From an uncultured Archangium sp. (GTDB lineage: Bacteria; Myxococcota; Myxococcia; Myxococcales; Myxococcaceae), in assembly GCA_903905455.1 (NCBI GenBank), contig CAIVGN010000009.1:1-44812 (forward strand): a stretch of 44,812 nt of DNA. The letters run 5' to 3'. Position numbers and translations under genes: made by a program. Within the stretch, counting starts at the first letter, position 1. Each line of letters opens with the position of its first letter. Of this stretch, positions 5,850 through 11,774 are shown piece by piece. Under the pieces are notes generated by a model, which worked only from the letters and a program-made list of their open reading frames with translations, was not told the DNA's origin and did not search any database.

Positions 5850-6932
5850 TTACTGGCAGGCGCCCCAGGGCATCACGCCGCCGTCGACCGGGTTGAGCAA
5901 GCCGCCGCACTGCCCGGCGCCGCAGTTGGGCATGCCGGCGTCACGGTTGCAGAACTGGTGGCACGCGCCCGCGGTGGCGCTCGTGAGCAGGCACACGCTG
6001 CCCTTCACGCAGTTGCCCTGCGTCTGGCCACAGACCGCCCCGGCGGCCACGGTGCCGGCGGTGTTGCAGAGCGGCCCGGTGCCCGAGAGGTAGCAGCCCT
6101 CGCCCGCCGCGCAGTTCTGCGCGAGGGGGTCGCACGCCGTGACGGGCACGCAGAACAGCGGCTTCTCGGGGCTGCCGCCGATGTCGATGTAGGAGGCACA
6201 CGCCGCGTTGGCGCCGCACTGCACGTCGGTGTTGCAGAACTTGTGGCACTTGCTGTCCGCCAGGCAGATGAGGCCCGTGGCGCAGTCGTCCATTTGGCTC
6301 GCACCGCACGCCTGGCCTTCGGTCTTCACGCCCGCCGCCCCGCACGCGCGCTCCACGCCACCGTCGGCGAGGCCCGCGTAGGAGCACTTGCCGCCGTTCG
6401 GGCAGTTCTGGGTCACGAGGTTGCACGCGCCCGCGAAGCACTGGGTGCTGCCCGAGGCGTTGGTGAGGAAGCACGACTCGTTGGCGCCGGTGCAGTTCTG
6501 GAGCGCGATGTTGCAGCCCGTCGCGCCGCCGCCCGTGGTGCCACCACCCGTGCCGCCGCCCGTCGTGCCGCCACCGGTGCCGCCGCCCGTCGTGCCGCCG
6601 CCGGTGCCCGTGCCGCCACCCGTCGTGCCGCCGCCGGTGCCCGTGCCGCCGCCCGTCGTGCCACCACCGGTGCCGCCGCCCGTGCCCGCGTGCGTCTCAC
6701 AGACGAACAGGGTCTTGCTGCAGGCCGCGCCGGTGGCCGCGCAGTTGGAGCAGGTCGTGCCCTTCTGGCCGCACGAGGTGTCCGAGCTGCTCGCCGAGAC
6801 CGGCACGCACTTGTTGGCCGCGTCACAACAGCCGTCACAGTTCGTCGGGCCGCACGCGGGGGTGCCACAGGAGGGAATGACGGCGACGAGGAAGCCGAGA
6901 ACGGCACCGAAAGAGAGGGCTCTGAGGTTCAT
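5850..6932 (-). CDS. Cys-rich lipoprotein with Gly/Thr linker
   Basis: Protein of 360 residues. A signal peptide ends in a lipobox-like IPSC, followed by a short Cys-rich module (CGPTNCDGCCDAANKC), then a low-complexity linker built from GGGT/GGGTT units (about residues 84-137), and then about 220 residues with regularly spaced cysteines in patterns such as CNTDVQCGANAAC and CNRDAGMPNCGAGQCGG. This is the typical build of myxobacterial surface lipoproteins. The ATG at 6932 begins the signal peptide; an upstream ATG at 6953 would place charged residues before it. Monocistronic with its own terminator. Function not recognised; adhesive or ligand-binding roles are guesses. Confidence 0.82.
   Translation of the reverse strand: MNLRALSFGAVLGFLVAVIPSCGTPACGPTNCDGCCDAANKCVPVSASSSDTSCGQKGTTCSNCAATGAACSKTLFVCETHAGTGGGTGGGTTGGGTGTGGGTTGGGTGTGGGTTGGGTGGGTTGGGTGGGTTGGGATGCNIALQNCTGANESCFLTNASGSTQCFAGACNLVTQNCPNGGKCSYAGLADGGVERACGAAGVKTEGQACGASQMDDCATGLICLADSKCHKFCNTDVQCGANAACASYIDIGGSPEKPLFCVPVTACDPLAQNCAAGEGCYLSGTGPLCNTAGTVAAGAVCGQTQGNCVKGSVCLLTSATAGACHQFCNRDAGMPNCGAGQCGGLLNPVDGGVMPWGACQ
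6521..6690. repeat. GC-rich tandem repeat encoding the Gly/Thr linker
   Basis: Imperfect tandem units of GGTGGCGGC / GGCACGACGGGC type (minus-strand sense), in multiples of 3, 12 and 18 bases, encode the linker of the lipoprotein at 5850-6932. Every unit keeps the reading frame, so gain or loss of units would only change linker length. Confidence 0.8.
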
Positions 6933-6972: not shown

Positions 6973-7503
6973 TCAGCGCGTTCCCCCGTCGGGGTCGCCG
7001 GTCACGAACTTGAGCGCCTCGGGGGGCTTGAGGCTGCACGCGGTGACCGCGCCCGAGGGGTCGAGGGCGTCGCTCCCCTCGCTGACCGAGAGCACCTTGC
7101 GCCCGGATCCGATGACGAAGGTCACCCGCCGGGCGATGGTGAAGATGAAGACCTTCACGTCGAACGCCTTGACCAGCACCGCGTCGGGGTCGGCCACGAA
7201 GGAATAAGGCGCCTTGAGCGACTCGCGGAACCGCTTCTGGGTGTCGACGCCGTCCGTCGAGACCGCGATCACCGTGCCGTGGTGCTTCTGGATGTCGGCA
7301 TACCGGTCCCGGTACGCAGTGAGTTCGCGCGTTCAGCCAGGGGTGAAGGCCTTGGGGAAGAAGGCCACGACCACCGGGCCCCGCTCCACCAGGCTCGAGA
7401 GCACCAGCTCCACGCCGTCGACGTCCTTGACCGTGAAGTCCGCGACCACGTCACCGACGGCAGGCTGCGCAGCGAGGGCGAGGGTGAGGAGCGCGGTCAG
7501 CAT
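6973..7503 (-). CDS. Secreted selenocysteine-containing peroxiredoxin (in-frame TGA = Sec57)
   Basis: One continuous frame of 176 residues is interrupted only by a TGA at 7335-7333, exactly where the peroxidatic cysteine belongs: P50-K-A-F-T54-P-G-U57 matches the peroxiredoxin motif PxxxTxxC. Both sides are good peroxiredoxin: [15 protein letters not shown] and [13 protein letters not shown] before it, [22 protein letters not shown] and RVTFVIG after it, with conserved Arg126. Residues 1-12 are a short signal peptide, so reduction of peroxides in the periplasm or envelope is likely. The only cysteine is Cys156 near the C-terminus, a possible resolving residue. A SECIS-like hairpin follows the TGA. 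The gene lies 43 bp after the SsnA-like gene. Usual gene callers would report only the part from 7272 on, or a pseudogene. The ATG at 7503 lacks a clear Shine-Dalgarno sequence. A TGC-to-TGA mutation or sequencing error is the alternative. Confidence 0.85.
7298..7335 (-). promoter_or_regulatory. UGA (Sec) codon with bacterial SECIS-like hairpin
   Basis: On the minus strand the UGA (7335-7333) is followed after 15 bases by GCGUACCG-GGAC-CGGUAUGC (7317-7298), which folds into an 8-bp stem with one G-U pair and a four-base loop starting with G. The loop begins 24 bases after the UGA. Bacterial SECIS elements recognised by SelB sit immediately downstream of the UGA, inside the coding region, with a short stem and a G at the start of a small apical loop about 16-37 bases away, so the geometry fits. 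The fold was read by eye. Confidence 0.7.
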
Positions 7504-7546: not shown

Positions 7547-8818
7547 TCAGCCCTTCATCAGCGCCCAGGCGGCCTTGGCGGCCTCGGCCGAGGCGCGGGC
7601 CACCTCCACCGCGTCGAGGGCCAGGGACTTGCGCTTCCACAGGCGCCACAGCCCGTCGACCATCACCGACTCCACCAGCCGCCCCGACAGGCCGTGCAGC
7701 ACGTGCGCCGCGAGGGTCTGCGCGTCGAGCGGCGTGGGCGGGTGGTAGTCGAGCACCATCAGGTCGGCGACCGCGCCGGGCTGCAGCGGGCCGACCGGAA
7801 GGCCGAAGGCCTCGGTGGCCAGGCGGTGGCCGTTGGCGAGGAAACGCAGCGCGTCGATGGGCTGGCCCGAGTCGTTGGCGCGCAACGCCGCGGCCTGGAC
7901 CTCGGCGAAGACGTCGAGCGACATCACGTCGGTGCCCAGGCACGCGCGCACGCCGAACTTGCCGGCGGCGGCGCGCCCGGTGGCGCTCGACATGTTGGAC
8001 CGGGCCGCGTGGGCCAGCCAGGTGCCGGCGCTGATCAACTCCGAGAGCTCCGGCCACGAGAGGTGCACCCCCTGGGCGAGCACCACGCGGGAGCCGGTCA
8101 TGCCGCGGGCCACGAGGCGCTCGGCGGCCGTGGCGTTGAAGCGATCGCGGCTCTCCCGCTCTTCGGCCGGGTCTTCGGCGAGCGTGGCCAGGAGCATCGC
8201 CCCGGTGCGCCGGAGCGCGTCGTCGAGCGACCCCAGGCCCTCCTCGGACAACGACGCCAGCGACTCGGCGGCGAAGGCCCCGCGGAACCGGCCCTTGGCG
8301 CGGGCCACGTAGTCGAGGTTCTCTTCGAGGGCGGCCTGACGGGCCTGCGCCCCGCCCCGCTCGCTGACCAGGTAGCCGAGCACCGCGCGCAGCCCGACGC
8401 CGTTGAGCCCGTGAGCGACCCGCGAGAGCGACCCGGCGACGTGGGCGCCCGAGGCGTGCACGTTGAAGACGGTGGTGGTGCCCGCCTGCAGCCCCTCGAG
8501 CGCGCCGGCCGTCGTCGCGGCCTGGAGCTGGTCGCCGTCGATGACTTCGGCGAGGCGGTGGCGGGCGTGCTGCTCGGCCGCGAAGCCGGTGCCCACGCGC
8601 GGGGCGCCCCGCAGGAGCGTCGAGGTGAAGTGGTGGTGCGCCGACACCAGGCCGGGGAAGAGGAGCTTGCCGCGCAGCTCGATCACCTCGTCGCCGGGGC
8701 GTGGCTCGAGCACCGTCGCGCGCTCGACGATGCGGTCACCGTCGATGCGGAGATCGGCTACTTCGACGCACGCCGGCTCGAGATCGACGACGGTCGCCCC
8801 TCTGAGGAGTGTGGACAC
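7547..8818 (-). CDS. SsnA-like amidohydrolase with degenerate metal site
   Basis: Protein of 423 residues with the layout of the AtzA/TRZ/SsnA group of amidohydrolases: a small N-terminal beta part, then [14 protein letters not shown] with the HxH motif (H61, H63), [22 protein letters not shown] (D297), [11 protein letters not shown] and a C-terminal [17 protein letters not shown] return to the beta part. It resembles SsnA, a family often linked to selenium-dependent molybdenum hydroxylases. Two expected metal ligands are changed: the His of the xHxxE motif is Thr212 (TLAED, Glu215 kept) and the His of AHG is Gln249 (AQGVHL). Zinc or iron hydrolase activity may be altered or lost. GTG start at 8818. 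It is the first gene of a two-gene unit with the Sec-peroxiredoxin. Confidence 0.78.
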
Positions 8819-9025: not shown

Positions 9026-10465
9026 ATGAAGCAGTCCCTCCTCGTCCCCCTCGCGTTGGCCGGCGCCCTCGGTGGGCTCGTCGCCTGCGGCCCCTCTGTC
9101 CTCGAGGCCCCCGCGGCGGCGGCGCAGACCGACGCGATCATCGGCGGCACCCTGGCCCTGGGCGACCCGGCGGTGGTGTCCCTGGCGGTGCGCTACGGCG
9201 GCTCCTACGAGTCGCTGTGCACCGGCACCCTCATCGGGCCCAAGACCGTGCTCACCGCGGCGCACTGCATCTACGCCTACGGGCAGAACACTCCGTACTA
9301 CGTGGTGTTCGGAACCGACTCGAGCGCGCCCACCAGGGCCGTGGCCGTCGCCCAGCAGTACAAGAACCCCAGCTACAACCAGAGCTCCTACGACTTCGGG
9401 CTGCTGCGCCTGGCGACGGCGGTGACCGACGTGACGCCCATCGCGATCAACGAGACGCCGCTCAACACCGGCCACATCGGCACCCCCATTCGGCACGTCG
9501 GCTACGGCTTGACGGTGGCCAACAGCCAGCTCTCGGGCACCAAGCGCGAGGTCACCTACGATCTGCGCCAGGTGACGGCCTACACCATCGAGTCCGGCGC
9601 CGCGGGCAAGCAGACCTGCCAGGGCGACTCGGGCGGGCCGGGCTTCATGGTGATGCCGGGCACCACGCAGGAGAAGGTGGTCGGCGTGGTGAGCTACGGC
9701 GACGCCGACTGCGCCATCGAGGGCTTCGACGGCCGCGTCGACGTGGGCGCCCCGTGGATCCGCCAGACCATGGGCGGCTGGGAACAGCCGACCTGCGCGG
9801 CCGACGGCCAGTGCGTGCCCGGCTGCACGCCCATCGACCCCGACTGCGCGTGCAAGGCCGACGGCGTATGCGGCGCCGACTGCAGCGACCCCTCGAAGGA
9901 CGTGGACTGCCCCGCCGACTGCAGCGCCAACGGCATCTGCGCGCAGCAGGCCTGCGGCCGCCCCGACGTCGACTGCGTGCCGGCCGGCGACCTGTGCAGC
10001 GCGGCGGTGCAGTGCCAGTCGCGCCTGTGCGTCAGCGACGACCAGAACCCCACCACCTACTGCACCCAGGCGTGCCGCGCGCAGACCGACTGCCCCTCGA
10101 GCATGGAGTGCGCCTCCGGCTCGTGCCGCATCAAGCAGCGCCCGGTGCGCCAGCTCTTCGATGCCTGCGCAGCGTCGACCGACTACTGCGCCCAGAGCAT
10201 CTGCACCGGCCCCACCGGCGGCTTCTCGCGCTGCGTGAAGGGCTGCCTGGTGACCGCCGACTGTGCCTCGGGCTCGGTGTGCGAGGCGGGCTCCGATTCG
10301 CAGCGCTTCTGCCGCCCCGCCGAGCTGCGCTTCACCAACGTCACGCTCCCCGCGGTGTCGACCATCGCCGGCGAGCCGGCCACCGGCTGCACCGCCTCGG
10401 GTGGCGCGCTGGGCCTGTGGCTCGGGCTCGCGCTGCTGCGTCGGCGCCGCGCGAAGTCGAACTGA
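9026..10465 (+). CDS. Secreted trypsin-like serine protease, lipoprotein with MYXO-CTERM-like tail
   Basis: Protein of 479 residues. A lipoprotein signal peptide ends LVAC21. A propeptide ends at IIGG (38-41), the normal activation cleavage site. The S1 triad is complete: His80 (LTAAHC), Asp123 (YDFGLL) and Ser202 (CQGDSGGP). Residues about 260-445 are Cys-rich modules (CVPGCTPIDPDCACKADGVC type). The C-terminus has TGC, a hydrophobic stretch and RRRR, as in MYXO-CTERM sorting tails. It should be an active surface protease. Having both a lipobox and a C-terminal sorting tail is odd. It is preceded by a sigma-54 promoter and followed after 1 bp by a paralogue. Confidence 0.9.
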   Translation: MKQSLLVPLALAGALGGLVACGPSVLEAPAAAAQTDAIIGGTLALGDPAVVSLAVRYGGSYESLCTGTLIGPKTVLTAAHCIYAYGQNTPYYVVFGTDSSAPTRAVAVAQQYKNPSYNQSSYDFGLLRLATAVTDVTPIAINETPLNTGHIGTPIRHVGYGLTVANSQLSGTKREVTYDLRQVTAYTIESGAAGKQTCQGDSGGPGFMVMPGTTQEKVVGVVSYGDADCAIEGFDGRVDVGAPWIRQTMGGWEQPTCAADGQCVPGCTPIDPDCACKADGVCGADCSDPSKDVDCPADCSANGICAQQACGRPDVDCVPAGDLCSAAVQCQSRLCVSDDQNPTTYCTQACRAQTDCPSSMECASGSCRIKQRPVRQLFDACAASTDYCAQSICTGPTGGFSRCVKGCLVTADCASGSVCEAGSDSQRFCRPAELRFTNVTLPAVSTIAGEPATGCTASGGALGLWLGLALLRRRRAKSN

Positions 10466-10466
10466 A

Positions 10467-11774
10467 GTGAGGCCTGTTTCGCGCCCCCTGCGCACCCTGG
10501 GCCCACCCCTGCTGCTGGGCCTGCTCGCCGCCTGCGGCCCGGTCGCGGTCGAGCCGGGGCGCGCGCGCTCGGCCATCGTCGGGGGCACGGCCATCACCTC
10601 CGACCCCAACGTGTACCTGCTGATGATCCGCGGGGACAACGGCCAGGGCTCCACGTGCACCGCGACGTTGATCGCCCCCCGCACGTTGATCACCGCCGCC
10701 CACTGCGTCGATCCCAACATCCTCGGGGCGGGCGCGGTGACCCTCGTCGCCAGCAACGTGCCTGACGAGGGCCAGGTCAAGTACGGCCTCAACACCGTCA
10801 AGGTGAAGGAGACGCGCATCCTCCCCGGGTGGACGCCGGCGATCAGCCTCGACAACGATCTCGCGCTGGCGCTCCTCGAGAGCCCGCAAGACGTGACCCC
10901 CAAGCCGTGGAACTCGAGCTCGCTGGCCGGCCGCGGCGGGGCGCCGGTGCGCGTGCTGGGCTACGGCACCACGGGCAGCAACGGCCTGGGCGCGGGGCTG
11001 CGGCGCGAGGTGGCCCTCACGGTGCGCCAGCTCTCGCCGGAGCTGCTCTACCTGGGCAACGGCGTCGACAAGGGCATCTGCCACGGAGACTCGGGCGGCC
11101 CGACCTTCCTCACCTTCGAAGACGGCGTGGAGCGCCTCGTGGGCGTGCACAGCTTCACCGTCACCGAAGACTGCCTGGACGGCGCCGACACCCGCGTCGA
11201 CGCCTACGCCTCGTTCGTCCAGCAGTGGCTGGCCGACCACGAAGACGCGTGCGCGGCCAACGACGTGTGCGCGGTGGGGAGCTGCGCCTCACCCGACCCC
11301 GACTGCGTCCCGCTCGGCGGCGCCTGCAACAACGTCTTCCAGTGCCTGGGCCGGCAGTGCGTCAGCGACGTGCAGCACCCCCAGCCGTACTGCTCGAAGA
11401 CCTGCGTCACCGACCCCGACTGCGGCGCGGGCTTCACCTGCGACCCGGCCGACCACGTGTGCCAGCGCGTGCAGCTGCCGCTGGTGCGCCCCCTCGAGCC
11501 CTGCATTCCCGGCGCGACCTTCTGCGAGAGCGGCACGGTGTGCACCGGGCCCGCCGAGGGGAACACCCGCTGCAACCGCCCCTGCGCGCAGACCAGCGAC
11601 TGCCCGAACCCCGAGCGGTGCCAGCCCGGCTTCGACGGCATGAAGATCTGCACCGCGCCCCCGGCCATCGTGATCGCCGCGGCGACGCTCGCGGCGCCCG
11701 CGGCCCCGGGGTGTTCGACGGGCCTGGGCCTCGCGCCGTTCCTCCTGATCGCCATCGTCCTGCGGCGGCGCTGA
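10467..11774 (+). CDS. Secreted trypsin-like serine protease paralogue
   Basis: Protein of 435 residues with the same build as the gene before it: lipobox LLAAC23, activation site IVGG, S1 triad His79 (ITAAHC), Asp131 (NDLALALL) and Ser209 (CHGDSGGP), then Cys-rich modules (CNNVFQCLGRQC, CVTDPDCGAGFTC) and a C-terminal GCS, hydrophobic stretch and RRR tail of MYXO-CTERM type. The GTG start at 10467 begins 1 bp after the TGA of the upstream gene, so the two are co-transcribed. Tandem duplication followed by divergence is likely because module order is shared but sequence identity is moderate. Substrates unknown. Confidence 0.88.
   Translation: MRPVSRPLRTLGPPLLLGLLAACGPVAVEPGRARSAIVGGTAITSDPNVYLLMIRGDNGQGSTCTATLIAPRTLITAAHCVDPNILGAGAVTLVASNVPDEGQVKYGLNTVKVKETRILPGWTPAISLDNDLALALLESPQDVTPKPWNSSSLAGRGGAPVRVLGYGTTGSNGLGAGLRREVALTVRQLSPELLYLGNGVDKGICHGDSGGPTFLTFEDGVERLVGVHSFTVTEDCLDGADTRVDAYASFVQQWLADHEDACAANDVCAVGSCASPDPDCVPLGGACNNVFQCLGRQCVSDVQHPQPYCSKTCVTDPDCGAGFTCDPADHVCQRVQLPLVRPLEPCIPGATFCESGTVCTGPAEGNTRCNRPCAQTSDCPNPERCQPGFDGMKICTAPPAIVIAAATLAAPAAPGCSTGLGLAPFLLIAIVLRRR

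Follow-up and report, generated by a model that had tools for sequence, protein, structure and literature searches.

The window analyzed here is a 44,812-nt stretch of DNA from an uncultured Archangium sp. (contig CAIVGN010000009.1, GCA_903905455.1), and the peroxiredoxin (Prx) gene described below is part of it. On the minus strand, a reading frame runs from an ATG at position 7503 to a terminal TGA at 6975–6973. A reading of the DNA sequence alone had proposed that this frame encodes a complete peroxiredoxin interrupted by one TGA on its catalytic codon, and both parts of the proposal are borne out. The 176-residue frame contains a single internal TGA (7335–7333, codon 57) and no other stops or shifts. 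With Cys placed at codon 57, the Pfam AhpC-TSA profile matches residues 16–137 across the TGA (E 2.5e-27, 95.7 bits, cut-off 26). The active-site motif P50-K-A-F-T54-P-G-U57 matches PxxxTxx(C/U), the TGA taking the peroxidatic place in PKAFTPG-x-T, and P50, T54, and residue 57 are invariant among the 27 Prx members compared. The protein has one cysteine, Cys156 (TGC at 7038–7036), as had also been noted. An Rfam search of the window returned no known RNAs.

Table 1. Features at the peroxiredoxin locus.
Feature	Coordinates	Strand	Basis or remark
Predicted Sec-peroxiredoxin gene, PrxQ/AhpE-like, 176 codons plus stop	6973..7503	-	Frame, profile, model, fold matches
TGA codon 57, probably read as selenocysteine, predicted peroxidatic residue	7333..7335	-	Aligned with TGC/TGT (Cys) or TGA (Sec) of homologues
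Cys156, sole cysteine, candidate resolving residue	7036..7038	-	TGC; spacing conserved in homologues
SECIS-like hairpin, 8-bp stem GCGUACCG/CGGUAUGC, apical loop GGAC	7298..7317	-	Fold, conservation, bSECIS constraints
Hydrophobic N-terminal extension, codons 1–17, possible export signal, no basic n-region	7453..7503	-	Sequence; AF2
SsnA-like amidohydrolase, conserved neighbor	7547..8818	-	43 bp upstream of Prx
Cys-rich lipoprotein-like gene, Gly/Thr repeats	5850..6932	-	Short gap downstream of Prx

The SsnA-like amidohydrolase gene adjoins the Prx gene in most Myxococcaceae loci with enough flanking sequence, for selenocysteine (Sec) and Cys forms alike, and the two are probably co-transcribed. 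Its product scores 229.9 bits against TIGR03314 (“putative selenium metabolism protein SsnA”), for which the cut-off is 455.5. A selenium role for this neighbor was considered and is not claimed because the score is half of the SsnA cut-off. The Cys-rich lipoprotein-like gene is conserved beside Prx in the window's clade only, and its protein has no Pfam match. Elsewhere in the window, positions 9026–11774 of the plus strand hold a tandem pair of trypsin-like proteases with Cys-rich C-terminal parts.

Orthologues of the Prx gene were sought in 145 genomes of the order. In those read, the equivalent of codon 57 is TGA or encodes Cys (TGC or TGT), never TAA or TAG. None shows extra internal stops or frame damage, close relatives included. 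Of 84 distinct homologues, 45, spread across families, have TGA as the catalytic codon. These TGA forms come from dozens of Myxococcota and some Gammaproteobacteria (L085 and L087–L090); the former include the window's genus, nearby genera, Pyxidicoccus fallax, P. caerfyrddinensis, and members of the further families f2 and f3 of the order. Among the Cys forms are those of Corallococcus and Myxococcus species and a TGC gene from the same genus as the window (L107, genome G053). In one genus, a TGT gene (L118) and a TGA gene (L122) encode nearly identical proteins. Some apparent further cases were rejected: the second TGA of L032 and L033 is a normal stop rather than a second Sec codon, and the TGA of G042 is the terminal stop of a gene with a catalytic Cys. 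A separate PrxQ-type protein with a catalytic TGA (L117, G004:C39; DTPGUTMQGCGLRD) has a PrxQ-like Cys at +5. A Prx with the sequence FTGGU (L106, G041:C8), from another family in the order, apparently lacks both the C-terminal Cys and the consensus hairpin described below.

A nonsense mutation in a decaying peroxiredoxin gene would account for the one in-frame stop, at which standard annotation would end the gene (the list of open reading frames gives only a 99-aa remnant), but this explanation retains practically no probability because TGA recurs at the codon 57 equivalent, and both flanks of the TGA lie in intact frame under synonymous-codon constraint. The earlier judgment that a chance nonsense mutation was improbable is therefore upheld. 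Likewise, although the window derives from a 251-contig draft in which a true TGC might have been misread or misassembled, such an error is excluded for practical purposes because independent assemblies carry TGA at this codon, including the finished genomes G104, G109, and G013 (one or two contigs each).

If codon 57 specifies selenocysteine, then the genome should encode the machinery for its insertion. The window corresponds to contig C9 in a draft genome of 8.6 Mb that is 97.8% complete with 1.35% contamination. Curated profile searches of this genome detected selA (564.5 bits, cut-off 267.9), selB (300.2 bits, cut-off 242.3), and selD (370.9 bits, cut-off 125). The fourth component, selC (tRNA-Sec), was found with a UCA anticodon and a score of 71.2 bits, which is also over its curated cut-off. 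All four reside on contigs other than that of the Prx gene. The same genome carries a second, independent Sec gene, that for formate dehydrogenase alpha, in which the catalytic codon is TGA (SCNRT-U-HAPS), and UGA is therefore very probably read as Sec elsewhere in this genome. The formate dehydrogenase gene (L094, G000:C133) is followed by a NuoE/NuoF-like reading frame. Across the order, selA was found in 130 of the 145 genomes, over the cut-off in 128. Two genomes (G050 and G124) have a TGA-form Prx but no selA was found in them; both are drafts that are 80–87% complete.

UGA is reassigned in some bacteria, and the codon might accordingly be read as Trp or Gly, or through near-cognate suppression, rather than as Sec. 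However, the Prx gene and many of its homologues use TGA as their terminal stop, homologues with another residue at this position invariably have Cys, and a full set of Sec machinery is present together with a SECIS-like hairpin. Readthrough of this other kind is thus very improbable.

The hairpin sequence GCGTACCGGGACCGGTATGC (7317–7298) folds at −12.1 kcal/mol with 8/8 pairs. It begins 15 nt 3′ of the TGA, and its loop is 23 nt from that codon. According to published constraints, bSECIS elements have a loop of 3–9 nt with G in the first two positions, a stem of 4–16 bp, a distance of 16–37 nt from the UGA, and an MFE of −7.5 or lower (PMC13188914). The Prx hairpin satisfies all of these, and a scan of the window for the hairpin pattern returned this single site, with 0 expected. 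No TGA-plus-hairpin pattern was found in viral contigs. The folding energy of the 48-nt region is unexceptional when compared with synonymous shuffles (z of 0.09 for L001, mean of −0.74 for Sec genes), and plain folding energy measured in this way does not separate Sec from Cys genes. Because the fold energy is ordinary and 7.5% of synonymous variants of the window's Prx gene also make all 8 pairs, the evidence for the hairpin rests on conservation.

Sec and Cys genes are separated by conservation together with defined pairs. In the window's clade, 11 TGA genes were compared, and the six 7-codon segments with the strongest synonymous constraint all fall between codons +2 and +14. The run GCG TAC CGG GAC CGG TAT is nearly unchanged among these genes, and the Arg CGG/CGG and Tyr TAT codons are kept in 11/11. 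In neighboring genes, TAT is rare (3 of 93 Tyr codons) and CGG makes up 54 of 279 Arg codons. The most constrained segments of 25 Cys homologues lie elsewhere in the gene. Of 45 Sec genes, 37 have a consensus-type hairpin of 6 bp or longer, compared with 5 of 39 Cys genes, and in independent tree pairs the hairpin goes with Sec 6.4 times on average, against 0 (median p 0.03). Eight Sec genes do not have a perfect 6-bp consensus hairpin, and the gammaproteobacterial genes have a hairpin of other sequence at about the same position. On the tree of 84 homologues, loss of the hairpin accompanies the Cys state. A further regularity concerns the SecB group (e.g., L038, L047, and L077), where the Gly codon preceding TGA is GGT in 16/16 Sec genes, while the one before the catalytic codon of Cys genes is GGC or GGG in nearly all. 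An upstream context effect on UGA decoding is possible.

A tree of the 84 distinct proteins was computed after masking the Sec/Cys site, and on it this site switches state a minimum of 10 to 11 times. Across the bacterial peroxiredoxins known in 2006, five Sec-to-Cys events were counted (PMC1794560). Deep lineages include Sec forms, which suggests that Sec is ancestral and was repeatedly lost; the change counts are compatible with gain or loss. A switch to Cys needs no loss of the machinery, since selA is kept in nearly all Cys-form genomes.

The AF2 model of the protein has a Prx fold with a mean pLDDT of 84.5. Foldseek places it closest to BcpB of M. tuberculosis (5epf, E 4.5e-16), and the nearest solved structures are this protein and S. 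solfataricus Bcp1 (3drn), with further BCP and AhpE proteins next in rank. The window's protein reaches none of the NCBIfam equivalog cut-offs: it scores 59.7 of 140 bits (NF006960) and 49.3 of 260 bits (NF053650) for PrxQ, 26.1 of 270 bits for PrxU (NF040737), and 20.8 of 120 bits for the SelL-related profile. Prx-SUH (NF045827) does not appear for this protein among the matches listed. Weak matches to the Prx-SUH and SelL-related profiles are given by 6 and 21 of the 27 members, respectively. The protein is a member of a poorly described PrxQ/AhpE-like lineage.

Cys156 lies in a helix (residues 150–157) of the model. Of 77 myxococcal homologues, 71 have a Cys exactly 99 residues past the catalytic residue, and all 77 have one between +96 and +105; this Cys is conserved equally in Sec and Cys forms, which makes a resolving role likely. 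The main competing possibility is a Sec protein of the 1-Cys, AhpE-like type, in which an external thiol reduces Sec57 directly and Cys156 serves structure or some other function. The nearest folds include 1-Cys AhpE and M. tuberculosis BcpB, and Cys156 is far along the chain. However, the fixed spacing speaks against this type, as does the arrangement in gammaproteobacterial members, where the +99 Cys is missing and a Cys at +4 takes its place, as if resolving cysteines had been swapped. We regard the 1-Cys type as possible but distinctly the less probable arrangement. The simplest reading of the conserved spacing is that Cys156 acts as the resolving residue, and this is rather probable.

The sequence-only reading had also assigned the protein a signal peptide. 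The first ∼12 residues are hydrophobic; the model shows no structure for them and places residues 1–10 (pLDDT about 44) outside the fold. The basic n-region is missing: no K or R precedes the hydrophobic stretch in the window's Prx or in nearly all myxococcal members examined, which makes the original wording too strong. Ordinary signal peptides are present in a more distant member (L083) and in a gammaproteobacterial one (L088). Export of the protein nevertheless seems likely.

The sequence analysis establishes the catalytic TGA, the decoding genes, the conserved hairpin with its frozen synonymous codons, the recurrent exchange of Sec and Cys, and the conservation of Cys156. It supports the selenocysteine reading of codon 57 that had been put forward, and we conclude with high confidence that UGA codon 57 encodes Sec57 and that this residue is the peroxidatic one in a Prx of PrxQ/AhpE-like type. 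From these data we infer a scheme that comprises Sec insertion, peroxidase activity, a role for Cys156, and export. The hairpin just 3′ of the UGA would direct SelB and Sec-tRNA(Sec) to insert Sec in place of termination. The Sec57 selenolate would attack a hydroperoxide to give a selenenic acid, which would most likely form a selenenylsulfide with Cys156 and most likely be reduced in turn by a thioredoxin-like partner. The hydrophobic N terminus probably targets the enzyme to the cell envelope. A broader proposal, which we offer only tentatively, is that these proteins form an unnamed Myxococcota lineage of envelope selenoperoxidases with a Sec57–Cys156 pair at a resolving position not of the PrxQ type, an ancestral Sec, at least 10 conversions to Cys with the machinery kept, and an SsnA-like partner.

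Recognition of this gene corrects a class of genes that automatic annotation can be expected to cut short across many genomes of myxobacteria. The homologues also provide a natural experiment: close relatives, some of them cultured, carry either the Sec or the Cys form of the same orthologous enzyme, in most cases at a shared genomic position. With selA retained in nearly all relatives, why some keep Sec and others lose it becomes a testable question, for example with L118 and L122.

Sec peroxiredoxins are well established in bacteria, as the sequence-only reading had stated. The family has been known since work on E. acidaminophilum in 2001 (as cited in PMC8533274), is standard in surveys of selenoproteomes (78 organisms as of 2016; PMC5029168), and had three members counted in the myxobacterium Anaeromyxobacter dehalogenans in 2006 (PMC1794560). 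In the main text of the papers retrieved, no Sec peroxiredoxins are named in other myxobacteria. TGA is also found in orthologues of the window's Prx from the neighboring family f3, to which Anaeromyxobacter probably belongs. The protein shares with the Sec-Prx family (COG1225 Bcp, TxxU; E. acidaminophilum PrxU and A. dehalogenans; PMC1794560, PMC13188914, PMC9312934) the AhpC/TSA fold, the PxxxTxxU motif with a peroxidatic Sec, SelA/B/C/D decoding, and surrounding Cys homologues. It thus adds a member to an already known kind. In contrast to PrxU, it falls under the NCBIfam cut-off and has a hydrophobic N-terminal extension, and unlike PrxQ-type proteins with a Cys at +5 it has its Cys at +99. 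Prx-SUH and SelL-related redox proteins are distant Prx-like selenoprotein relatives of the lineage. PrxQ/BCP and AhpE proteins are the closest matches in fold and sequence; relative to them, Sec replaces Cys and the scores are far under the curated PrxQ cut-offs. PxAFT has been given for AhpE and a Gly preceding the catalytic residue for PrxQ (PMC5302317), and the active site of the window's Prx combines the two.
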